DNA of 64,000 nt. Source: a virus. This document shows positions 14,736-54,946 of the stretch, piece by piece. Every line of letters begins with the position of its first letter. Positions within the stretch are counted from its first letter, which is position 1. Below the pieces are notes generated by a model that was not told the origin of the DNA, made no database searches, and saw only the letters and a program-made list of their open reading frames with translations. The stretch spans positions 284,702 through 348,701 of IMG/VR virus record IMGVR_UViG_3300023174_000038; one strand, given 5' to 3'. Both the position numbers and the translations under genes were made by a program.

Positions 14736-15431
14736 TTATGATTTGCCTTCAATTTTTTCTTTTGTTCGGCAGTTTTCAAAGTGCCATCTACCCATAGTAT
14801 TTTTTCCACCAACTTTGTGGCAGTGAGGGCATTCAACTTGTTCTTTTGGTACTCCTTTAAATCGTAATGATGTTTGTTGTCGCAACTCATCCGTATGTTT
14901 TTTACCATAAAAAGGGTTAGTATTGCCTGGTCTACTTAGTTGTTTTCTGACCTCCGGCCTTTTAGCTGGATTGGACTCACCGTATTGCCAGTAGTTTTTT
15001 CTGCCTTTTAATTTAGTAGATACTTTTAACGCAATCTCCGGATCTCTCATAGGATTATTATTTCCTAATTTTTTAGGAGTATTTTTAGAAATTAACATAC
15101 GAACCTCAGGTCGTTTTGCAGGGTTATCCAATCCATATAATGGAGCAATAGAAATATTATCTGTTCTATTAATCCATTTTTCAGAATGTACTACTTTAAT
15201 TCTCTGTAGTACTCGCTGTTCCCATCGTCTAGCAGAAATAGAATTATTAAATATTTTTCGTACTTCAATAATTGAAGGCTCTCCGTACAATTGTACAATG
15301 GTGCTAACATGCCTGCTTGAAGTTTTGTAACTAACCCACAAATCACCCGGGTGACATTTTTTAGCATAGCGGACTCCGTAATACCATCTATTAATTTTTG
15401 GCCAACCTAATAGATATGTATAAGGTATCAT
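14736..15431 (-). CDS. GIY-YIG-type homing endonuclease with zinc finger and host-gene tail
   Basis: 231 residues from ATG 15431, which overlaps the holin stop (ATGA). Residues 3-20 (PYTYLLGW...YYGVRYAK) fit the GIY-YIG core, with E near 80 (RRWEQRVL) and N in INRTDN. NUMOD3-like repeats follow (GNNNP, GNTNPFYGKKH; NPAKRPEV blocks), then a CxxC...RWHFENC zinc finger. The last ten residues, RTKEKIEGKS, copy the end of the upstream holin (RTKEKLEGKQ). Such enzymes cut a specific DNA site to copy their own gene into it. Confidence 0.8.
   Translation of the reverse strand: MIPYTYLLGWPKINRWYYGVRYAKKCHPGDLWVSYKTSSRHVSTIVQLYGEPSIIEVRKIFNNSISARRWEQRVLQRIKVVHSEKWINRTDNISIAPLYGLDNPAKRPEVRMLISKNTPKKLGNNNPMRDPEIALKVSTKLKGRKNYWQYGESNPAKRPEVRKQLSRPGNTNPFYGKKHTDELRQQTSLRFKGVPKEQVECPHCHKVGGKNTMGRWHFENCRTKEKIEGKS
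14741..14767 (-). repeat. direct repeat copy 1 flanking the homing endonuclease
   Basis: 27 bases matching 15433-15459 at 23 positions, same orientation and reading frame. It forms the 3' end of the endonuclease gene. Confidence 0.7.
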
Positions 15432-16054
15432 TGTTTTCCTTCTAATTTTTCTTTTGTTCTTCCATAAGCTGCAACTCCTAATACAGCACCCATAGCAATA
15501 TGATAAAGTCCGGCACCTTGTAATGTTAACGGTTGCCATTGATTAGTGACTTGACCCTTACTCATTGCTTGTAATAAACTCCATAATACGGGGAATATAA
15601 CAAAATCACATGTACATGTTATCATATAAACGAATGCCATTAATGGTCGCCATTTTTTATTAATAAAATCTGTGTTATCATTAGCTACTAATACATCTGC
15701 CCCGCTTGCGGCATTTGTTGGGGCTGCTCCTGTGAGGACGGGTTGATTACTGTTTGATTGGTTAATGTTTTGTGTGCTACCAAATCCAGACGTTGGCGCT
15801 CCAAATCCTGAACCACCACCAAAGCCCGTTGATGTTGACGTACCAAAACCACCGGGTGAGCCGAAGCCTCCTGCTGACGGTGAGCCAAATGTTGAAGACC
15901 CGCCAAATGATATGTTGACTGCATTACTATCTCCAAATGAACTGCCTTGCGGAAATTGCTGTATTGTAGGATCAGCCGCTAACATTTCGTGATGGTCATC
16001 ATCTAATGTCATTGGTTGCTCAAATCCTGTTTTCTTAGGTAATATCGTTGCCAT
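15428..16054 (-). CDS. holin-like membrane protein with FG-rich N-terminal half
   Basis: 208 residues. The C-terminal part begins INKKWRPLMAFVYM (131-144) and has hydrophobic helices at about 139-163 and 180-197, ending in a charged tail. This is the layout of the gene-transfer-agent-type 3TM holin family (W-R-P-L start, basic end). Residues 36-95 are low-complexity Gly/Ser/Phe with repeated GFG. Holins open the inner membrane at lysis; the endolysin candidate is at 26503. The 3' end is the apparent insertion target of the adjoining homing endonuclease. Lysis role is likely but not proven; it could be a membrane anchor. Confidence 0.65.
   Translation of the reverse strand: MATILPKKTGFEQPMTLDDDHHEMLAADPTIQQFPQGSSFGDSNAVNISFGGSSTFGSPSAGGFGSPGGFGTSTSTGFGGGSGFGAPTSGFGSTQNINQSNSNQPVLTGAAPTNAASGADVLVANDNTDFINKKWRPLMAFVYMITCTCDFVIFPVLWSLLQAMSKGQVTNQWQPLTLQGAGLYHIAMGAVLGVAAYGRTKEKLEGKQ
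15433..15459 (-). repeat. direct repeat copy 2 (3' end of the holin gene)
   Basis: Partner of 14741-14767; codes the C-terminal residues RTKEKLEGK of the holin. The repeats flank the endonuclease gene like a duplicated target. Confidence 0.7.
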
Positions 16055-18458: not shown

Positions 18459-18471
18459 TTTAATCTTTCTG

Positions 18472-18549
18472 TATAAATAGTAGTGTAGCCCACGAGAATC
18501 TGACCTCTCCGACTACTCTAATGCTCATATCTTGAAAGGAAGCACCAGC
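18472..18549 (+). promoter_or_regulatory. endonuclease leader 1: late promoter plus conserved hairpin
   Basis: TATAAATA (18472-18479), then TAGTGTAG and a hairpin: outer stem GTAG 18485-18488/CTAC 18513-18516, inner stem GAGA 18494-18497/TCTC 18506-18509. Then ACTCTAATGC, a GAAAGGAAG ribosome site and CAGCATG. The same layout occurs before the endonucleases starting at 37586 and 47604. Confidence 0.75.
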
Positions 18550-19383
18550 ATGACTATTTATTATTTAATGATTAAGACGCATAATATTACGGGTCTTAAA
18601 TATTTGTGTCAAACTAAACAAAAGAATCCTATTAATTACACAGGTTCCGGAGTTGATTGGAAAATACACTTAAAAGAGCACGGCATAGATATTAGGACTA
18701 GTATCATTAAAGCATCAACTGATAAACATATCATCAATGAGTTAGGAAGACATCTCAGTAATCTATGGAAAATAACTACTGCCATGAATGATTACGGGGA
18801 CAGAATATGGGCTAATAAAATACCTGAAACGGGCGGTGGTGCAGGAGTTACTAGTGATATAGCAAAACAAAGATACGTAGATCATCCTGAGTTGATTGAA
18901 CAATTCAAGAAAACAATGACATTGCCGCAAAGTGTTCAGAGAAGAAAAAAATCTAGGGCTGTTACAGTTTCACAACCTGAATTTAGAGAAAAATTCAAAT
19001 CAACAATGAAACTTGCCATGAATAGACCAGAAGTCAGATTGAATAATAGCATCAATCAGACGAAAGCTCAAAATAGACCCGACGTAAAACTGAATAAAAG
19101 TATTAAACAAAAGGAAGCTCAAAATAGACCCGAAGTTAAGATGCTCAAGAGTAAAAATGGCAAAATAGCACAGAATAGACCAGAGGTTAAAGATTCCAAA
19201 TCAGGTAAAAATAATTATAGATACGATCCAACAATTCGCACATTTATTCATTCTGACGGAACGATAGAAAAAATGCCAGCTAACGATTTCAGTCTAAAGT
19301 ACAACTTAGATCGCGGGTGGCTATCCAATGTAATTCTTGGAAATAGAAAAACAATAAAAGGTTGGTCTGTTAAAGTGCAGTAA
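18550..19383 (+). CDS. homing endonuclease (GIY-YIG-like) with tandem repeats and DNA-binding tail
   Basis: 277 residues from ATG 18550, after GAAAGGAAG. The N-terminus MTIYYLMIKTHNITGLKYL and the region up to IPETGGGAG match the endonuclease at 46942, a relative of GIY-YIG enzymes. Residues 150-215 hold four tandem units of about 17 residues, each with NRPEV or NRPDV. The last 50 residues (FSLKYNLDRGWLSNVILGN) look like a NUMOD1-type helix-turn-helix. The gene lies opposite to its neighbours and overlaps the 3' end of the clamp loader gene by 14 bases, typical of a mobile insertion. Confidence 0.78.
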   Translation: MTIYYLMIKTHNITGLKYLCQTKQKNPINYTGSGVDWKIHLKEHGIDIRTSIIKASTDKHIINELGRHLSNLWKITTAMNDYGDRIWANKIPETGGGAGVTSDIAKQRYVDHPELIEQFKKTMTLPQSVQRRKKSRAVTVSQPEFREKFKSTMKLAMNRPEVRLNNSINQTKAQNRPDVKLNKSIKQKEAQNRPEVKMLKSKNGKIAQNRPEVKDSKSGKNNYRYDPTIRTFIHSDGTIEKMPANDFSLKYNLDRGWLSNVILGNRKTIKGWSVKVQ

Positions 19384-36438: not shown

Positions 36439-36924
36439 TTATTTATCTGACGGTTCTTTACTGGCCAACATCTTAAGCAACTCGTTGCGGTCTAAAGCTT
36501 TACCCTCACCAACTGGCGTGTTCTCTATCTCTTCGGCTTTTCCAGCCAACTTCTGGTCTAACTGTGCTTTCTTAAGCTGTAAATCAATCATCTTTAACTT
36601 CTTATTCAATTTAGCAGTCTTTGCTGTAATAGCATGACCTAACATGTTACTAGCAACACTAAAAATCTCACTACTAAATCTACTATCAACTTGCATACCC
36701 AAATCACTTAAATCTTTAAAACTATCTACAGCCATCTGCGCTAATTCATCTAACTCATTATCACTAGCATCTAATCCACGTACTTGTGGCAATGCATTAT
36801 CAATCTTCTCTAACGCACTTAATGCATCAGTGGTTATATCACGTGCATTTTCTGGTATAGGAATATGCAAGCTGTCAATCTCATCTTGCGGTAGCTCAAA
36901 TAATTCGTTTAATTTTTTCGTCAT
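36439..36924 (-). CDS. putative terminase small subunit (gp16-like)
   Basis: 161 residues, nearly all helical: an N-terminal Leu/Glu segment, a central coiled-coil pair ([39 protein letters not shown]) and a short charged tail. Size and coiled-coil layout match T4-type small terminases (gp16, 164 residues), and it sits near gp4 and tail genes. No large terminase is in the window, so the call rests on shape only; a scaffold helper is the main alternative. Its ATG overlaps the end of the endonuclease gene (ATGA). Confidence 0.4.
36440..36447 (-). promoter_or_regulatory. late promoter box GATAAATA inside a gene end
   Basis: GATAAATAA in which GAT AAA TAA are the last two codons and stop of the gene at 36439; about 19 bases before ATG 36420. 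Confidence 0.55.
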
Positions 36925-37586
36925 ATGTTATTTATTCGGTCTCTGTTATCCAAAATGTATTTTACCCTATCCCATGAGATTTGAAGTTTAATAGATATCT
37001 GTCTAATATTTGTACCACTATCAGCTAATTCAAACACTTGAGGGAATAAGTGTTTGTTCTTGTCAATATATGTTGTAACCATCTGTTCTCTTTTTTCATC
37101 AGACCAGGTAGATCCTTTTCTATTTTCTGCAGCCTTCAAGCAATTATTAAGTCTATTTTCTAGTGCCTTTTCAGACCAAACTTTGTATTCTGTTTGGTAT
37201 ATTTTAATTTTTTCTTTAGTGGACTCTTTACGTTTTATACCAGTACGTTGCTCGGTAAATAATTTTTTAGTATGTTCATAATGTTTAAATCCAGATACTC
37301 CTTCTCCACCATCGGTTCTATTTTGTAGTATACCGGTATTATTATTCTTTCTACCATACCATTTAATCATCCTTCGTTCTATTGCAAATGCACCTATTTC
37401 TGTTAAACCGGATTCTAATATAATAATCCTAGACGTGTCTTTTGGAGTTTTAAATCGTTCAGTATTTGCGTGACCCCACGCTCTATATCCGTGTCCTTTA
37501 CCGATGTAATACGGTGTGTTATCTTTCCGTAGATAGGCATATACATAAAACCCCGCAGGATATAATTTTTTATAATAAATAGTCAT
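36921..37586 (-). CDS. GIY-YIG homing endonuclease
   Basis: 221 residues. [19 protein letters not shown] (13-31) is a textbook GIY-YIG core, with the following Arg (GYRAWGHA), Glu (ERRMIKWYG) and Asn (LQNRTDGG). The middle is a Lys-rich linker ([11 protein letters not shown]), and the end ([19 protein letters not shown]) a helix-turn-helix. It is inserted between gp4 and the putative small terminase gene. Its last codons contain AATAAATA, apparently the promoter of the next gene, and its leader contains a late box shared with the stop of gp4. Confidence 0.88.
36929..36936 (-). promoter_or_regulatory. late promoter box AATAAATA within the endonuclease 3' end
   Basis: AATAAATA plus ACAT, then ATG 36924. 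The endonuclease's last codons (RINNI) overlie it. Confidence 0.45.
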
Positions 37587-37654
37587 GCTGACATTCCCTT
37601 ACAATGTTAGAGTAGTTGGGGTTCCGACGCCCGCGAACTACACTTTTATTTATC
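37587..37654 (-). promoter_or_regulatory. endonuclease leader 2: late promoter plus conserved hairpin
   Basis: GATAAATA (37647-37654) overlaps the gp4 stop codon; then AAGTGTAG and a hairpin with outer stem GTAGTT/AACTAC (37636-37641 with 37612-37617) and inner stem GGG/CCC (37630-37632 with 37618-37620). Then CTCTAA, AAGGGAA and CAGCATG. Compare 18472 and 47605. Confidence 0.75.
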
Positions 37655-38096
37655 TTTTGTTCTTTGGATTACCATTGTGGAAGATATCATCTTCCGTCAA
37701 CACTCTAAAGGTATATCCATGATGCTTACAATAGGCCATTGCAGCTTGCCATTTAGCATGGTTGATTGCTACTACCATTCTATCTTTAGCATTAGCAACT
37801 TTACTTTCTATAAGACTTTGTTTCTTGGGTTTAATCTCAACTATCTCAGCAATATTTTTACCATACTTGTTTTGATAAACTACAAAGAAGTCTGGGATAT
37901 ATGTTTTTGGTTGTCCAGTAAACGGATTACGATAAGGTACACTTATTGCTTCACTAGCCCAATACAATACGTTTTTGTTAGTATCACAAAAATTCATAAA
38001 TGTTAGTTCCCATCCACTACGATATCTAGGGGTATGTTTACCTACATATTTTTGACTATTCTTTGGGGTAAATAAACCTTGAGCAAACTTTGCCAT
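37650..38096 (-). CDS. 4: head completion protein, T4 gp4-like nuclease fold
   Basis: 148 residues. The sequence FTPKNSQKYVGKHTPRYRSG, then WELTFMNFCDTN, SEAISVPY, YIPDFFVVY and EIVEIKPKK follows T4 gp4 head completion protein closely. The D in PDF and the E-x-K in EIKP are those of a PD-(D/E)XK nuclease-like fold. In T4, gp4 and gp50/gp65 seal filled heads before tail joining. Stop codon AGATAA is part of a late box for the following endonuclease. Confidence 0.85.
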   Translation of the reverse strand: MAKFAQGLFTPKNSQKYVGKHTPRYRSGWELTFMNFCDTNKNVLYWASEAISVPYRNPFTGQPKTYIPDFFVVYQNKYGKNIAEIVEIKPKKQSLIESKVANAKDRMVVAINHAKWQAAMAYCKHHGYTFRVLTEDDIFHNGNPKNKR

Positions 38097-45942: not shown

Positions 45943-46890
45943 TTATGGTGTGCCACCGGTTGCTCCCAGCTGTGTAGCTTGAACAGTCATAGGTCCACGT
46001 GTTGTTGCAGTAGCAGTATCAGTTGCATAAATTATCCGCTGTGTTGTGGCTTGATTAGATCCGTATACCCATCCATAACTAGTATCACCGGTACCACATA
46101 TATACGGTGCAGGATTGGCCAACGGGCCTCTAATGCTAGCGGTTGCTGTATCCGTTGCATATGTTATTCTTTCAACCATGCTAGAATTGTAATTTCCTCC
46201 AAAAAACCAGCCATACGTAGAATTATCAGTAGTTGCGGCAAGGGCATATCTTACACCACTAAGTGGACCACGTGTACTTGCGGTAGCAGTATCTGTTGCA
46301 TAGGTGATACGAGAGACTTTAGATTGGGATACACCACCGGCAAACCAGCCGGATGTACTAAGCCCGGTTGCGGCATTCCACTGCACAGCAAAACTTAATG
46401 GGCCACGTGTGGTTGCATTAGCAGTATCTGTTGCGTATGTAGTTCTGTCTACGGTTGATATGGTTCCGGGACCAATTGGGTAATTATATCCGCCACCCCA
46501 CCAGCCATATGTAGCACCATCTGTGGAGGCGGCCAACTGTCTTACTCCACCGGATAATGATCCTCTAAGGCTGGCTGTTGCAGTATCAGTTGAAAAAGTA
46601 ACTCTTTGAACCGCAGAGATAATAGAAGATTGAAAGCTTGATTGCTGTCCTCCTCCCCACCATCCATATGTTAAAGTGCCTGCGGCTGTTAGCTGTCTTG
46701 CTATAAGGGATAATGGGCCCCGTATTGAGCTAGAGGCAGTATCTGTTGCAAAAGTTATACGCTGTACGGTGGATATAGAACCATATCCGCCACCCCACCA
46801 ACCTGCAGTAGCGGTGGACGGAGGTGCCGGAGGTGCTACTATACCCACTCCACCACTAAATGAAATTCCACCTGTTATCGTTATTGACAT
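45943..46890 (-). CDS. six-repeat fibre-like protein (beta-propeller type)
   Basis: 315 residues. Leader MSITITGGISFSGGVGIV, then six units of about 48 residues with the core RITYATDTATASxRGPLS and a Trp/Gly loop (GWWGGGY). Paralogue of the gene at 35467. All units share their core exactly in several places, so recombination between copies is possible. Likely a surface-exposed tail or head appendage. Late promoter at 46918. Confidence 0.72.
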   Translation of the reverse strand: MSITITGGISFSGGVGIVAPPAPPSTATAGWWGGGYGSISTVQRITFATDTASSSIRGPLSLIARQLTAAGTLTYGWWGGGQQSSFQSSIISAVQRVTFSTDTATASLRGSLSGGVRQLAASTDGATYGWWGGGYNYPIGPGTISTVDRTTYATDTANATTRGPLSFAVQWNAATGLSTSGWFAGGVSQSKVSRITYATDTATASTRGPLSGVRYALAATTDNSTYGWFFGGNYNSSMVERITYATDTATASIRGPLANPAPYICGTGDTSYGWVYGSNQATTQRIIYATDTATATTRGPMTVQATQLGATGGTP

Positions 46891-46917
46891 AATTGTTACC
46901 CTTAAATACGTATATTG

Positions 46918-46925
46918 TATTTATC
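46918..46925 (-). promoter_or_regulatory. late promoter box GATAAATA
   Basis: GATAAATAC, 27 bases upstream of ATG 46890, between the endonuclease stop and the fibre gene. Confidence 0.6.
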
Positions 46926-46941
46926 GGGCAACAATTATTAC

Positions 46942-47604
46942 TTACAAATCGCCTTCTTTACGATTCTCACTATAATATGCATCAAAACTACCAATATCTT
47001 TCATTTTACAATTATTTCCGTGCCATCTTACGTAATTACCTTTAGAAATAATTTTATCGCAATATTCACACGTAATCTGATACTCAGGTTTACACATTGG
47101 ATTGTTACTACCGGTCTTTAATGCATTTAATTTTGAAAGTTTTGGATTTTTCTTTCCGCGCATTGCACTTACTTTTCCAAACATTGGATTTTTATTACCA
47201 ACATTAGCAGAATTTCTAGCACTAAGTTGCGGATTCTTTTTTCCATACATGGGATGTTTATCACCAGCCCTGAGTGAGTTTCTTTCTCCTACTGTAGTAT
47301 TTTTTCTTCCGTAACAAGGATGATTCTCACCTCTATCCGAACCACCTGTTTCAGGTATCTTGTTTGCCCACTCATTACTTTTAACAATATTCCACAGTGT
47401 ACTGTAGTATCTCCCCCAAATACTCAATTCTTCTTTAGAGTGACATTCCCTAATAATTTCAGTATCAATGAATTTACCAAACTCTTTTAAATGAGATTTC
47501 CATTCTAATCCTGAACCCAAATATTTGTAGGGATCTTTAGTTGTTTTGCCGAGATATTTAATCCCAGTAACTTGGTGGGTCTTTTTGTATAGATAAATAA
47601 TCAT
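46942..47604 (-). CDS. homing endonuclease with NUMOD3 repeats, zinc finger and host-gene tail
   Basis: 220 residues. MIIYLYKKTHQVTGIKYLGK and WANKIPETGG match the plus-strand endonuclease at 18550. From 109 come NUMOD3-type repeats (GxKxPMYGKKN five or so times), then CxxC...VRWHGNNC, the same zinc finger as in the gene at 14736. The last 16 residues, GSFDAYYSENRKEGDL, agree at 12 of 16 positions with the last 16 of the upstream MazG-like protein. Late promoter and structured leader lie upstream. Confidence 0.8.
   Translation of the reverse strand: MIIYLYKKTHQVTGIKYLGKTTKDPYKYLGSGLEWKSHLKEFGKFIDTEIIRECHSKEELSIWGRYYSTLWNIVKSNEWANKIPETGGSDRGENHPCYGRKNTTVGERNSLRAGDKHPMYGKKNPQLSARNSANVGNKNPMFGKVSAMRGKKNPKLSKLNALKTGSNNPMCKPEYQITCEYCDKIISKGNYVRWHGNNCKMKDIGSFDAYYSENRKEGDL
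46945..46992 (-). repeat. target-gene tail copy at the endonuclease end
   Basis: Sixteen codons matching the last sixteen codons of the MazG-like gene (47677-47724), roughly 60% at DNA level and 12/16 at protein level, in the same frame. Confidence 0.7.
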
Positions 47605-47673
47605 GCTGATTGCTCCTTCAAAGCATTAGAGTAACTGGGAAGTCTAATTCCGCGAGTTACACTATTATTTATC
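47605..47673 (-). promoter_or_regulatory. endonuclease leader 3: late promoter plus conserved hairpin
   Basis: GATAAATA (47666-47673) directly after the MazG-like stop; then TAGTGTAA and a hairpin with outer stem GTAACT/AGTTAC (47655-47660 with 47631-47636) and inner stem GGAA/TTCC (47648-47651 with 47638-47641). Then CTCTAATGC, GAAGGAG and CAGCATG. Confidence 0.75.
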
Positions 47674-48105
47674 TTAAATATCACCATCCTTACGATGTTC
47701 TGAGTGGTAAGCATCAAATGACCCGCCGGGATATCTAGACTCAAGTTTTTTAATATTTTCTTGAATCACATGATTTGGATCTACATTGAGGGCCCTGCAG
47801 GCTGTAATCCAGTACCACATAATGTCACCTAATTCCCTAACCATATGGTAGGCATTCTCATCAGTTAATGGTTTACCCTGAAAAAACATCTTTTTGGGCA
47901 CTTCAATAAACTCACCTGCTTCAGCCGCTAATCCAAGACAAGCGGTTAATAACAATGGTACATTGATATCAGGACCATGTACCCCATCACCAATGTAATT
48001 AGCATCTAGCTCATCACACCGGTCCATAAACGTAGTCAAGTCATTGCTTGCTTTGCTTGTTACTGCTTCTACAAAATCTTTGTATTTGTTCAAATCAATA
48101 TTCAT
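47674..48105 (-). CDS. MazG-like nucleotide pyrophosphohydrolase
   Basis: 143 residues. All-alpha NTP-PPase pattern: AAEAGEFIEVPKK with EAGE at 62-65 and E68, then VRELGDIMWYW with EL-GD at 91-94 for metal binding. It ends LESRYPGGSFDAYHSEHRK, a conserved MazG-family tail. MazG enzymes hydrolyse nucleotides such as (d)NTPs or alarmones; phage copies are thought to tune nucleotide pools or stringent signals. ATGA overlap with the 60-residue gene. Its 3' end is the apparent target of the neighbouring endonuclease. Confidence 0.85.
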   Translation of the reverse strand: MNIDLNKYKDFVEAVTSKASNDLTTFMDRCDELDANYIGDGVHGPDINVPLLLTACLGLAAEAGEFIEVPKKMFFQGKPLTDENAYHMVRELGDIMWYWITACRALNVDPNHVIQENIKKLESRYPGGSFDAYHSEHRKDGDI

Positions 48106-53155: not shown

Positions 53156-53468
53156 ATTTTAGTAGTTTTGCTATTGTATCAAAACCAAGTGACCCTATCA
53201 CTATGCCTGCCCCCATCATCATCCATCTCCACTTTTCTAGTGCAGAGACTTTTGATCCCAGTTCCTTATGAGCAATAACATCTTCGTTACGCATATTATT
53301 TAGAAGTGTTCTAGTTTCTTCTGCGTTACGGTCAAGACATTCATGCATCTCTTTAAGACTACTTTTGATTTCGCTGACATCTTGTTCAATGTTTTTAAAT
53401 TGAACTTGAAGTACAGCGATATCAGTTTTAGTAGTCTGTGCCGGCATCTTAATAGTTTTCGTAATCAT
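53154..53468 (-). CDS. small coiled-coil protein with C-terminal membrane helix (XhlA-like)
   Basis: 104 residues; TAATG overlap with the gene before. Residues 10-80 form a coiled coil (VLQVQFKNIEQDVSEIKSSL), followed by KWRWMMMGAGIVIGSLGF (80-97), a single membrane helix. This is the build of haemolysin XhlA/holin-like phage proteins, which attach to the membrane at lysis. Could also be a spanin-like partner. Confidence 0.65.
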   Translation of the reverse strand: MITKTIKMPAQTTKTDIAVLQVQFKNIEQDVSEIKSSLKEMHECLDRNAEETRTLLNNMRNEDVIAHKELGSKVSALEKWRWMMMGAGIVIGSLGFDTIAKLLK

Positions 53469-54862
53469 TAAGCATTAGCAATCGTTACGATTGGGTTAGG
53501 CTGACCGTTAGCAGCATTAGCGGCGTAAGCAGTATTGAATGTAGCAATAACGTCAGGGTTAACGCTATAAACAACAGCAGTACCTGTACCAGATCCTGAA
53601 GCAGTAGCAGTAAATGTTACACCTGTCATATTAGATGATGCACCAACTGCTGTCCAGTTAGTTGTACCAGTAGAATAAATTGTATATACTGTACCTGCTG
53701 ATATTGATCCGGCTGCAACTTGCGCTGGGAATATTTCACTGTTATAATCATTAATACTTGAAACATATGCTGTAGCTGATGCATCATCAGTAGAAAGAAT
53801 GTTCATTGTATTTGGTGTCAATGCTGTATTTGCTACGTTAGCAGTATAGCATTGTGCTGTTAAACCAGTTGTACCACCTGTAACTAGATATTTTGTTTTG
53901 CCTTTTTGACGAACAATATAACCAGCTTCATCATTAGCATAAACATATGCGGCATTACTTGCTACAACATTTGCATTAGCTGTTAATACAACACGATTCA
54001 TAAGAGCATTGGCTGTTACAGACGCATTGGCTGTGACAGCTTGTACAGCACCACCTTGACTAGTAGAAACCGTGAACGCGGCTGCGTTAGCAATAGTTTT
54101 AACAAAATATGTTGTACCTGTAGTTAAACCACCAAAATTAGCACTAAACTGAATTGGCATATCTTCTATAAGAGTTTGTGCATTACCTGAAGTTCCAATA
54201 ATGCTACCTGATACTGTAGTATTTGCTACTGCAACACTAACATTACCTTTTGTTGCACTTGCAAAACCTAGATTAACATAATCAGTACTACCATTAATAT
54301 TAGCAACAGCAACTTGAAGTGCTGCGCCAGTAGTCAAATTAGCTAAATCAGTACCTACACCTACTACTACATTACTAGTGTTAACCGCTACTGGTGTGTA
54401 TAATGTACCTGTTCCATTAATACCAATTGCAACTTGTGCTAATACTTGTTTACCAACAATAGCTGTATTACCACCAACTACACCGTATGTAGCTGAGTTA
54501 GTTGCCGGAAAACCTGCACCGGATACTGGGTTATTGAAATAAGCATCAACAACACCAAATGACACTCTAACTGATTGAGTAGTAGTATCAGTCATTGTTG
54601 CCAAAACTTGCGGTTGAACACTTAAGTCTGTTGCAGATACACTAAATGTAGTATTTGATAATATTACATTTACGAAATATGTAACACCTGCTGTTAGACC
54701 ACCAACTGTAGTAGCTACTTGGAATGGCATTCCTTTAGCTACACCAACTGTTGGACTAGTTGTTAGATTTCCACCTGATACTGTAACGATACTGCCTGTT
54801 TGTGCTGTATCAGTAATTGTTAAGACTGCTTGAGCCTTTGCGATTTTTAGAGGACGTCCCAT
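53468..54862 (-). CDS. beta-repeat structural protein
   Basis: 464 residues, starting MGRPLKIAKAQAVLTITDTA. Two copies of the unit F...VGGLTxGVTYFVxxI...FSVS (about 45-80 and 240-285), plus YTIYSTGTTNWTAVGASSN near 400 and a short Asn/Ala tail. The same unit occurs in tail genes at 22735 and 24024. It has the longest structured leader in the window, which suggests a highly expressed virion protein, maybe a decoration or fibre shaft. Confidence 0.65.
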   Translation of the reverse strand: MGRPLKIAKAQAVLTITDTAQTGSIVTVSGGNLTTSPTVGVAKGMPFQVATTVGGLTAGVTYFVNVILSNTTFSVSATDLSVQPQVLATMTDTTTQSVRVSFGVVDAYFNNPVSGAGFPATNSATYGVVGGNTAIVGKQVLAQVAIGINGTGTLYTPVAVNTSNVVVGVGTDLANLTTGAALQVAVANINGSTDYVNLGFASATKGNVSVAVANTTVSGSIIGTSGNAQTLIEDMPIQFSANFGGLTTGTTYFVKTIANAAAFTVSTSQGGAVQAVTANASVTANALMNRVVLTANANVVASNAAYVYANDEAGYIVRQKGKTKYLVTGGTTGLTAQCYTANVANTALTPNTMNILSTDDASATAYVSSINDYNSEIFPAQVAAGSISAGTVYTIYSTGTTNWTAVGASSNMTGVTFTATASGSGTGTAVVYSVNPDVIATFNTAYAANAANGQPNPIVTIANA

Positions 54863-54946
54863 TTGATTTTCCTTTATAAAATTAGCGGGTTCTAGCCGCT
54901 ACGCAGTGGGTTACTGCATAAACTCTCCGAATGAGAATGTATTATA
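54863..54946 (-). promoter_or_regulatory. structured 5' leader with two hairpins
   Basis: Between the late box and ATG 54862 lie stem-loops GCAGT/ACTGC (54903-54907 with 54913-54917) and AGCGG/CCGCT (54884-54888 with 54896-54900), then AAGGA. Probably stabilises or regulates the mRNA, as leaders of abundant T4 proteins do. Confidence 0.55.

Follow-up and report, generated by a model that had tools for sequence, protein, structure and literature searches.

The zinc-finger homing endonuclease gene (HEG) at 46942..47604(-) of the window, the 64,000-nt stretch analyzed here from a 348.7-kb virus record (giant phage), has very probably entered a recipient's MazG-like gene by homing at the gene's 3' end, with co-conversion on the upstream side and a right junction inside the recipient gene. 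The donor block, comprising the last about 190 nt of MazG, a leader and the HEG through its zinc finger, has taken the place of the recipient's MazG end. The last 16 codons of the recipient gene, their stop codon and the 3' flank now stand past the zinc finger, and because they are in frame the HEG is translated on into the displaced end, which makes up its tail.

The endonuclease combines a NUMOD3 motif (Pfam 6.5e-06, above cut-off) with a zinc-finger DNA-binding region of the C..C / H....C pattern, CEYCDKIISKGNYVRWHGNNC, which is followed by KMKDIGSFDAYYSENRKEGDL. Its N-terminal domain was predicted confidently (pLDDT about 90), and its three best fold matches were all to the I-TevI catalytic domain (prob 0.96-1.00, at E 0.012 or weaker and from a model with pTM 0.40), which points to a GIY-YIG nuclease domain by predicted fold. 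Pfam found GIY-YIG at a sub-threshold level only, in the relative at locus L001 (E 0.01), and a PDB sequence search with the HEG profile gave no match. The MazG-like gene at 47674..48105(-) (Pfam MazG 1.7e-08) encodes a C-terminus reading GGSFDAYHSEHRKDGDI. As the original prediction had claimed, the HEG end GSFDAYYSENRKEGDL and the MazG-like end GSFDAYHSEHRKDGDI agree in 12/16 of their last residues. This similarity is far above chance, with a BLOSUM62 score of 71 where 200,000 shuffles of the tail reached 47 at best.

The origin of the tail becomes evident from the 80 MazG loci collected for comparison, nearly all of which are empty sites without the HEG. The tail (46942..46992(-), GSFDAYYSENRKEGDL plus stop) matches the MazG end of the empty sites L020 and L022 at 46/51 nt, as against 33/51 nt for the window's own MazG end 0.7 kb off. 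Behind it, 46887..46941(-), a late-promoter-like sequence with the start of the next gene, aligns with the post-MazG DNA of L020, L022, L024, L025 and L051. The MazG C-terminus is GSFDAYYSENRK-x-GDL in the first four of these and GSFNAYYSENRKPGDL in L051; the empty-site DNA continues TAAGTAATAATTGTTACC(T/C)GATAAATAC...GGGTAACAATTATGTCAATAAC, and the same stretch trails the zinc-finger region of the window HEG. Judged by these alignments, what the HEG now carries as tail and stop codon, together with the DNA that follows, was originally the end of the recipient's own MazG gene; it has been displaced beyond the mobile open reading frame (ORF) and matches uninvaded relatives.

What now closes the MazG gene has a different affinity. 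Its last 51 nt are 41-44/51 identical to those of the donor-type phages L001, L002 and L043 and 32-33/51 to those of empty sites; none of the donor-type ends is identical to it, the exact donor not being among them. The replacement end spans 47674..47868(-), an approximate upstream limit placed from the 51-nt identities and the switch point. The first ~230 nt of MazG are of recipient type and the last about 185-200 nt of donor type: at the 42 sites by which 11 recipient-type MazG genes differ from 4 donor-type ones, the window gene reads RRRRRRRDRRR and then D almost throughout, changing type between nt 228 and 248, and sliding identity along the gene agrees. As the two groups were picked after the tails had been seen, the switch is evidence of a chimera and not an independent test of the donor phage. 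On this comparison the MazG gene is a chimera whose present 3' end is a divergent, foreign copy, and the flank of an optional HEG has been co-converted. Microhomology at the MazG junction of the window is loose only (AGATAT, GGTAGT).

Close relatives of the endonuclease do not carry the same tail. The HEG of L001, 88% identical and likewise behind MazG, is tail-less, ending NNCKSK before its stop, and the DNA downstream of it is that of the HEG-less L043. The HEG of L002, 86% identical, ends NNCK followed by EGDL, a MazG end joined at a different point, where HEG sequence ...AATTGTAAA resembles MazG ...AATCGTAAA. The tail is therefore not a property of the enzyme. A separate observation concerns a conserved non-coding stretch of roughly 450 nt (AGGCACAGGTAAATACCACC...), at 3010-3480 in L001 and past the MazG stop in L043, which had no Rfam match at the gathering threshold.

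The same invasion pattern had been claimed for a second site of the window, and the comparison with empty sites confirms it. There, a holin-like gene at 15428..16054(-) (Pfam GTA_holin_3TM 2.2e-05, with uninvaded relatives) has the replacement end RTKEKLEGKQ, and it adjoins a HEG with NUMOD3 and a zinc finger at 14736..15431(-). The start of this HEG, originally put at 15539, is corrected to 15431, where its ATG overlaps the holin stop in the layout also seen in L102. The HEG ends WHFENC followed by RTKEKIEGKS, and the latter with its stop (14736..14768(-)) is the displaced 3' end of the recipient holin gene; its BLOSUM62 score of 43 against the replacement end was equalled by 1/200,000 shuffles. 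From the junction onward the uninvaded holin-like loci L107-L109 and the window both read CGAACAAAAGAAAAAATTGAAGGCAAATCATAATAAATATTGACTTAACACACTAACTGTG, and the match of the displaced end and flank to L107 (101/110 nt) extends into the next, DnaJ-like, gene. At one junction position the tails of the holin-site HEGs read RTKEKIEGKS in the window, KIKEKVAGVV in L102 and KRKEKLESKQ in L182; by their sequences, three HEGs bear three recipient-type tails. The two HEGs of the window had also been described as sharing the same zinc finger. Both indeed have the C..C / H....C pattern before the tail, and NUMOD3 is common to both, but they are not close relatives, and comparison of their DNA gave no meaningful match.

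Two further targets extend the series. The HEG tail of L448, KEYIIARQKLGLQP, matches uninvaded PhoH genes at 44/45 nt and the replaced end at 26/45, so that at MazG, holin and PhoH alike the tail proves to be the displaced 3' end of the target, as predicted. In L535 (2100-2300), a PhoH gene with the HEG-associated replacement end is directly followed by the displaced native end, with the HEG absent; this scar would reflect either loss of the HEG or repair that ended before reaching it. At an AhpD-like gene, L615 and L612 share AhpD and HEG (1160/1199 nt) and diverge outside. L615 has no displaced AhpD copy and unrelated DNA beyond its HEG, the displaced end being present in L612 alone, and from this arrangement the two are read as a donor/product pair. 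At the junction, product and donor have AATAACTT in common; the donor-type sequence reads AAATCAAAAGAATAACTTTTGG and the product AAATCTAAAGAATAACTTCTGTG, and AhpD relatives have CACTTCTGTG. As far as the AhpD stop, L613 and L612 are 99.8% identical; beyond it L613 has a different right side and lacks the HEG. In L669 a second AhpD end lies downstream, but no zinc-finger HEG separates the two, and this locus was left out of the count.

How general the arrangement is was asked of zinc-finger HEG loci gathered via pattern scans and the searches already described. A strict test, for a tail in frame and end-aligned with the upstream gene, was applied to the 106 zinc-finger HEGs whose upstream gene could be read; MazG and holin alone were convincing, PhoH (L448) was added later, and as a general rule the in-frame tail fails across these loci. 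A flank test compared the left with the right flank of each HEG in all frames for 198 HEGs and 400 same-contig control genes. The target end was found duplicated across 9-10/198 HEGs, at scores exceeding those of the controls, against 1/400 controls (Fisher p 1e-4 to 3e-4), the single control hit being a real case, a tandem paralogue; low-complexity hits had been removed by eye from both sets, and L448 and the M42 group were taken on position, with scores near or below the control maximum. The top flank repeats of L333, L371, L306 and L369 were dropped as tail-fibre low complexity, and a short repeat in L442 was likewise dropped. The match of a phage JSE HEG beside nrdB runs beyond the HEG stop and was put down to chance. 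With ~95% of the 198 HEGs showing no detectable target-end duplication, the expectation that most zinc-finger HEGs would match the C-terminus of the adjacent gene is not upheld.

The survey targets, named by Pfam for PhoH and otherwise from reading the sequence, are PhoH (L448, in-frame tail), AhpD-like (L443/L612 and L417, and a 5' end in L287), aminolevulinate-synthase-like (L300), YspA-like (L271), endolysin-like (L211), M42-peptidase-like (L345, L356, L263), DNA polymerase (L337, opposite strand), RNA-ligase-like (L477, opposite strand) and QueE-like (L497, 5' end). L287 and L497 are mirror images of the usual layout, in that a truncated target 5' end precedes the HEG and the complete gene follows. 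In L337 (3757-4864, HEG-strand coordinates), the polymerase-like gene by the HEG has an intein-like C-terminal motif, VYDISVKNQDPYFFGNDILL. The displaced copy starts 0-15 nt past the last zinc-finger Cys in L448, at both window sites and in L002, L271, L300, L443 and L211, and farther from it in L417 and L345. In-frame tails were found at MazG, holin and PhoH only, a minority of cases; at the other targets the displaced end is out of frame or beyond the HEG stop. Some dozen insertions do, however, obey a broader rule: the end of the target is replaced and its native counterpart displaced, in any frame, on either strand and sometimes at the 5' end.

These observations fit the following course of events. 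The HEG would cleave the recipient MazG close to its 3' end, and repair from a donor homologous upstream only would co-convert the end of the gene. The downstream flanks of donor and recipient would lack homology, and the junction would be closed within the recipient gene with short or no homology. The donor end would keep the host gene working and, with DNA only about 65% identical, probably escapes the cut site. The original prediction that the target stays intact stands, a donor copy having taken the place of its own end, and so does the statement that the tail follows the target and not the enzyme family, given the tail-less L001, the other junction of L002 and the three holin-type tails. 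The tail itself would be the scar of a one-sided event, not a functional domain, in frame only when the junction happens to fall so. The aligned genomes themselves show that the target end was replaced by a divergent copy, that the native end was displaced, that the co-conversion tract is one-sided and that the junctions vary. The junctions, at 0-15 nt past the last Cys, are more regular than random end joining, which suggests inherited junctions or selection.

That regularity bears on a variant of the homing explanation which differs in how the right junction forms and to which we give somewhat less than an even chance. Here a stable cassette would have homology on both sides, the displaced tail being its right arm, with the recipient's own tail swapped in at each round. 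The clustering of junctions at the end of the zinc finger and the three holin-site HEGs, with the same junction place and three recipient-type tails and flanks, both speak for such an arm. Against it stand the tail-less HEGs at the MazG (L001) and AhpD (L615) sites and the MazG-site junction of L002, which differs from that of the window; the right arm, therefore, is not always present.

One-sided homing also has to be set against adaptive recruitment, the general strategy originally proposed, in which the displaced end would serve as a functional HEG C-terminus for stability, targeting or regulation. In-frame fusion at three unrelated targets is what recruitment would predict, but elsewhere the displaced end is out of frame or past the HEG stop, a tail-less HEG exists (L001), and the structure of the 46942 tail is predicted with very low confidence (pLDDT about 43). 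In-frame tails being a minority, recruitment is not the rule, and we regard it as improbable. Had the MazG end been duplicated locally in tandem once the HEG was in place, and had the copies then diverged, the HEG would likewise be flanked by two copies; but this is very hard to credit, given that the two copies have their nearest relatives in different lineages of uninvaded or donor-type phages and that the body of MazG is itself a chimera. HEGs are frequently intron-borne and most comparison contigs are metagenomic, but an intron or intein arrangement or an assembly chimera is just as implausible, since the MazG ORF is whole and uninterrupted, Rfam detects no group I intron in the window, and several contigs and samples, independent of one another, show the same layout (holin: window, L102 and L182; AhpD: L443/L612 and L614).

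The donor block also brings a leader, at 47602..47679(-), with a late-promoter-like GATAAATA, a covarying hairpin and an AAGGAG ribosome-binding site (alignment; model R1, 88 bits). These elements, the promoter in the general form (T/G)ATAAATA, occupy the 69 nt upstream of the HEG. In 19 homologues the stem has two-sided changes in 37 cells, compared with 9.0 +/- 2.6 in shuffles, and the covariation collapses on a one-base slide. Model R1 finds further copies at 37584-37660(-) and 18466-18552(+) in the window and at 173481-173557(-) in the genome; the first two belong to GIY-YIG-like endonuclease genes at 36921-37586(-), which adjoins a TnsA-like endonuclease gene (37650-38096(-)), and 18532-19383(+). 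The model scored 28 hits in 79 HEG loci; in 95 loci not selected for HEGs it gave 4 distinct hits. All inspected hits precede an apparent GIY-YIG- or HNH-like endonuclease start, and among them the leader occurs only directly before homing endonuclease genes of these two types. Rfam has no matching family at the leader copy of the 46942 HEG, and a group I intron or known RNA was rejected as its identity. Elsewhere in the window, 54860-54938(-) is an Rfam freshwater-2 RNA (67 bits) ahead of ORF 53468-54862, where the leader model gives a weak hit (17 bits). Among known HEGs, seg43 of Aeromonas phage 25 is preceded by a non-sequestering hairpin (PMC2988022); one leader family across nuclease types looks new.

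It is conceivable, if rather unlikely, that zinc-finger HEGs whose coding effectively ends at the last Cys travel phage-wide in a cassette together with a diverged copy of the target's end. If so, the invaded gene would be both repaired and uncuttable, the stop codon could be obtained from the victim, and in-frame tails would be records of the recipients' former alleles. The genomic signature, a duplicated target end across an endonuclease, reveals, ahead of any experiment, which gene an uncharacterised endonuclease targets and within what limits its cut site lies, flags past transfers between phage lineages, and accounts for unusual C-termini and for truncated ends of genes met with in phage annotation.

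Among phage systems, the free-standing seg and mob HEGs of T4 (PMC2988022) are similar in being optional GIY-YIG or HNH genes by conserved genes with flank co-conversion. The host gene is split by mobE in nrdA and by mobA in gene 60, and the passages of the review consulted describe no duplicated, displaced host-gene end. The review also documents one-sided illegitimate repair closed by microhomology in T4 intron homing, which likewise has homology on one side and a microhomology junction on the other; those were laboratory constructs, whereas here the footprint is natural. The open-access full text searched, including passages of PMC2988022, PMC10448857 and PMC12724721, gave no phage description of the layout; with subscription papers outside the scope of the search, the displaced-end layout is likely, not certain, to be new for phages. 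The closest known kind are the mobile ORFs of fungal mitochondria, which bring foreign C-termini to atp6 of Allomyces macrogynus (Paquin et al. 1994, as cited in PMC3630166) and to atp6, atp9, cox2 and nad3 of Glomus sp. (PMC3630166). In Glomus atp9, a GIY-YIG ORF (334-1119) abuts the native end (1120-1171) directly (PMC3630166). As in these fungi, the HEG adjoins the 3' end of a gene, a divergent donor copy replaces that end, and the native end lies on the far side of the HEG, matching uninvaded relatives. In contrast to them, the hosts here are dsDNA phages, with many target genes on either strand and 5' ends as well, and at three targets the displaced end forms the C-terminus of the enzyme itself. 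A thirty-year-old curiosity of fungal mitochondria is thereby extended to phages, where natural examples exist of the donor-type, empty and product states and of the HEG-less scar.
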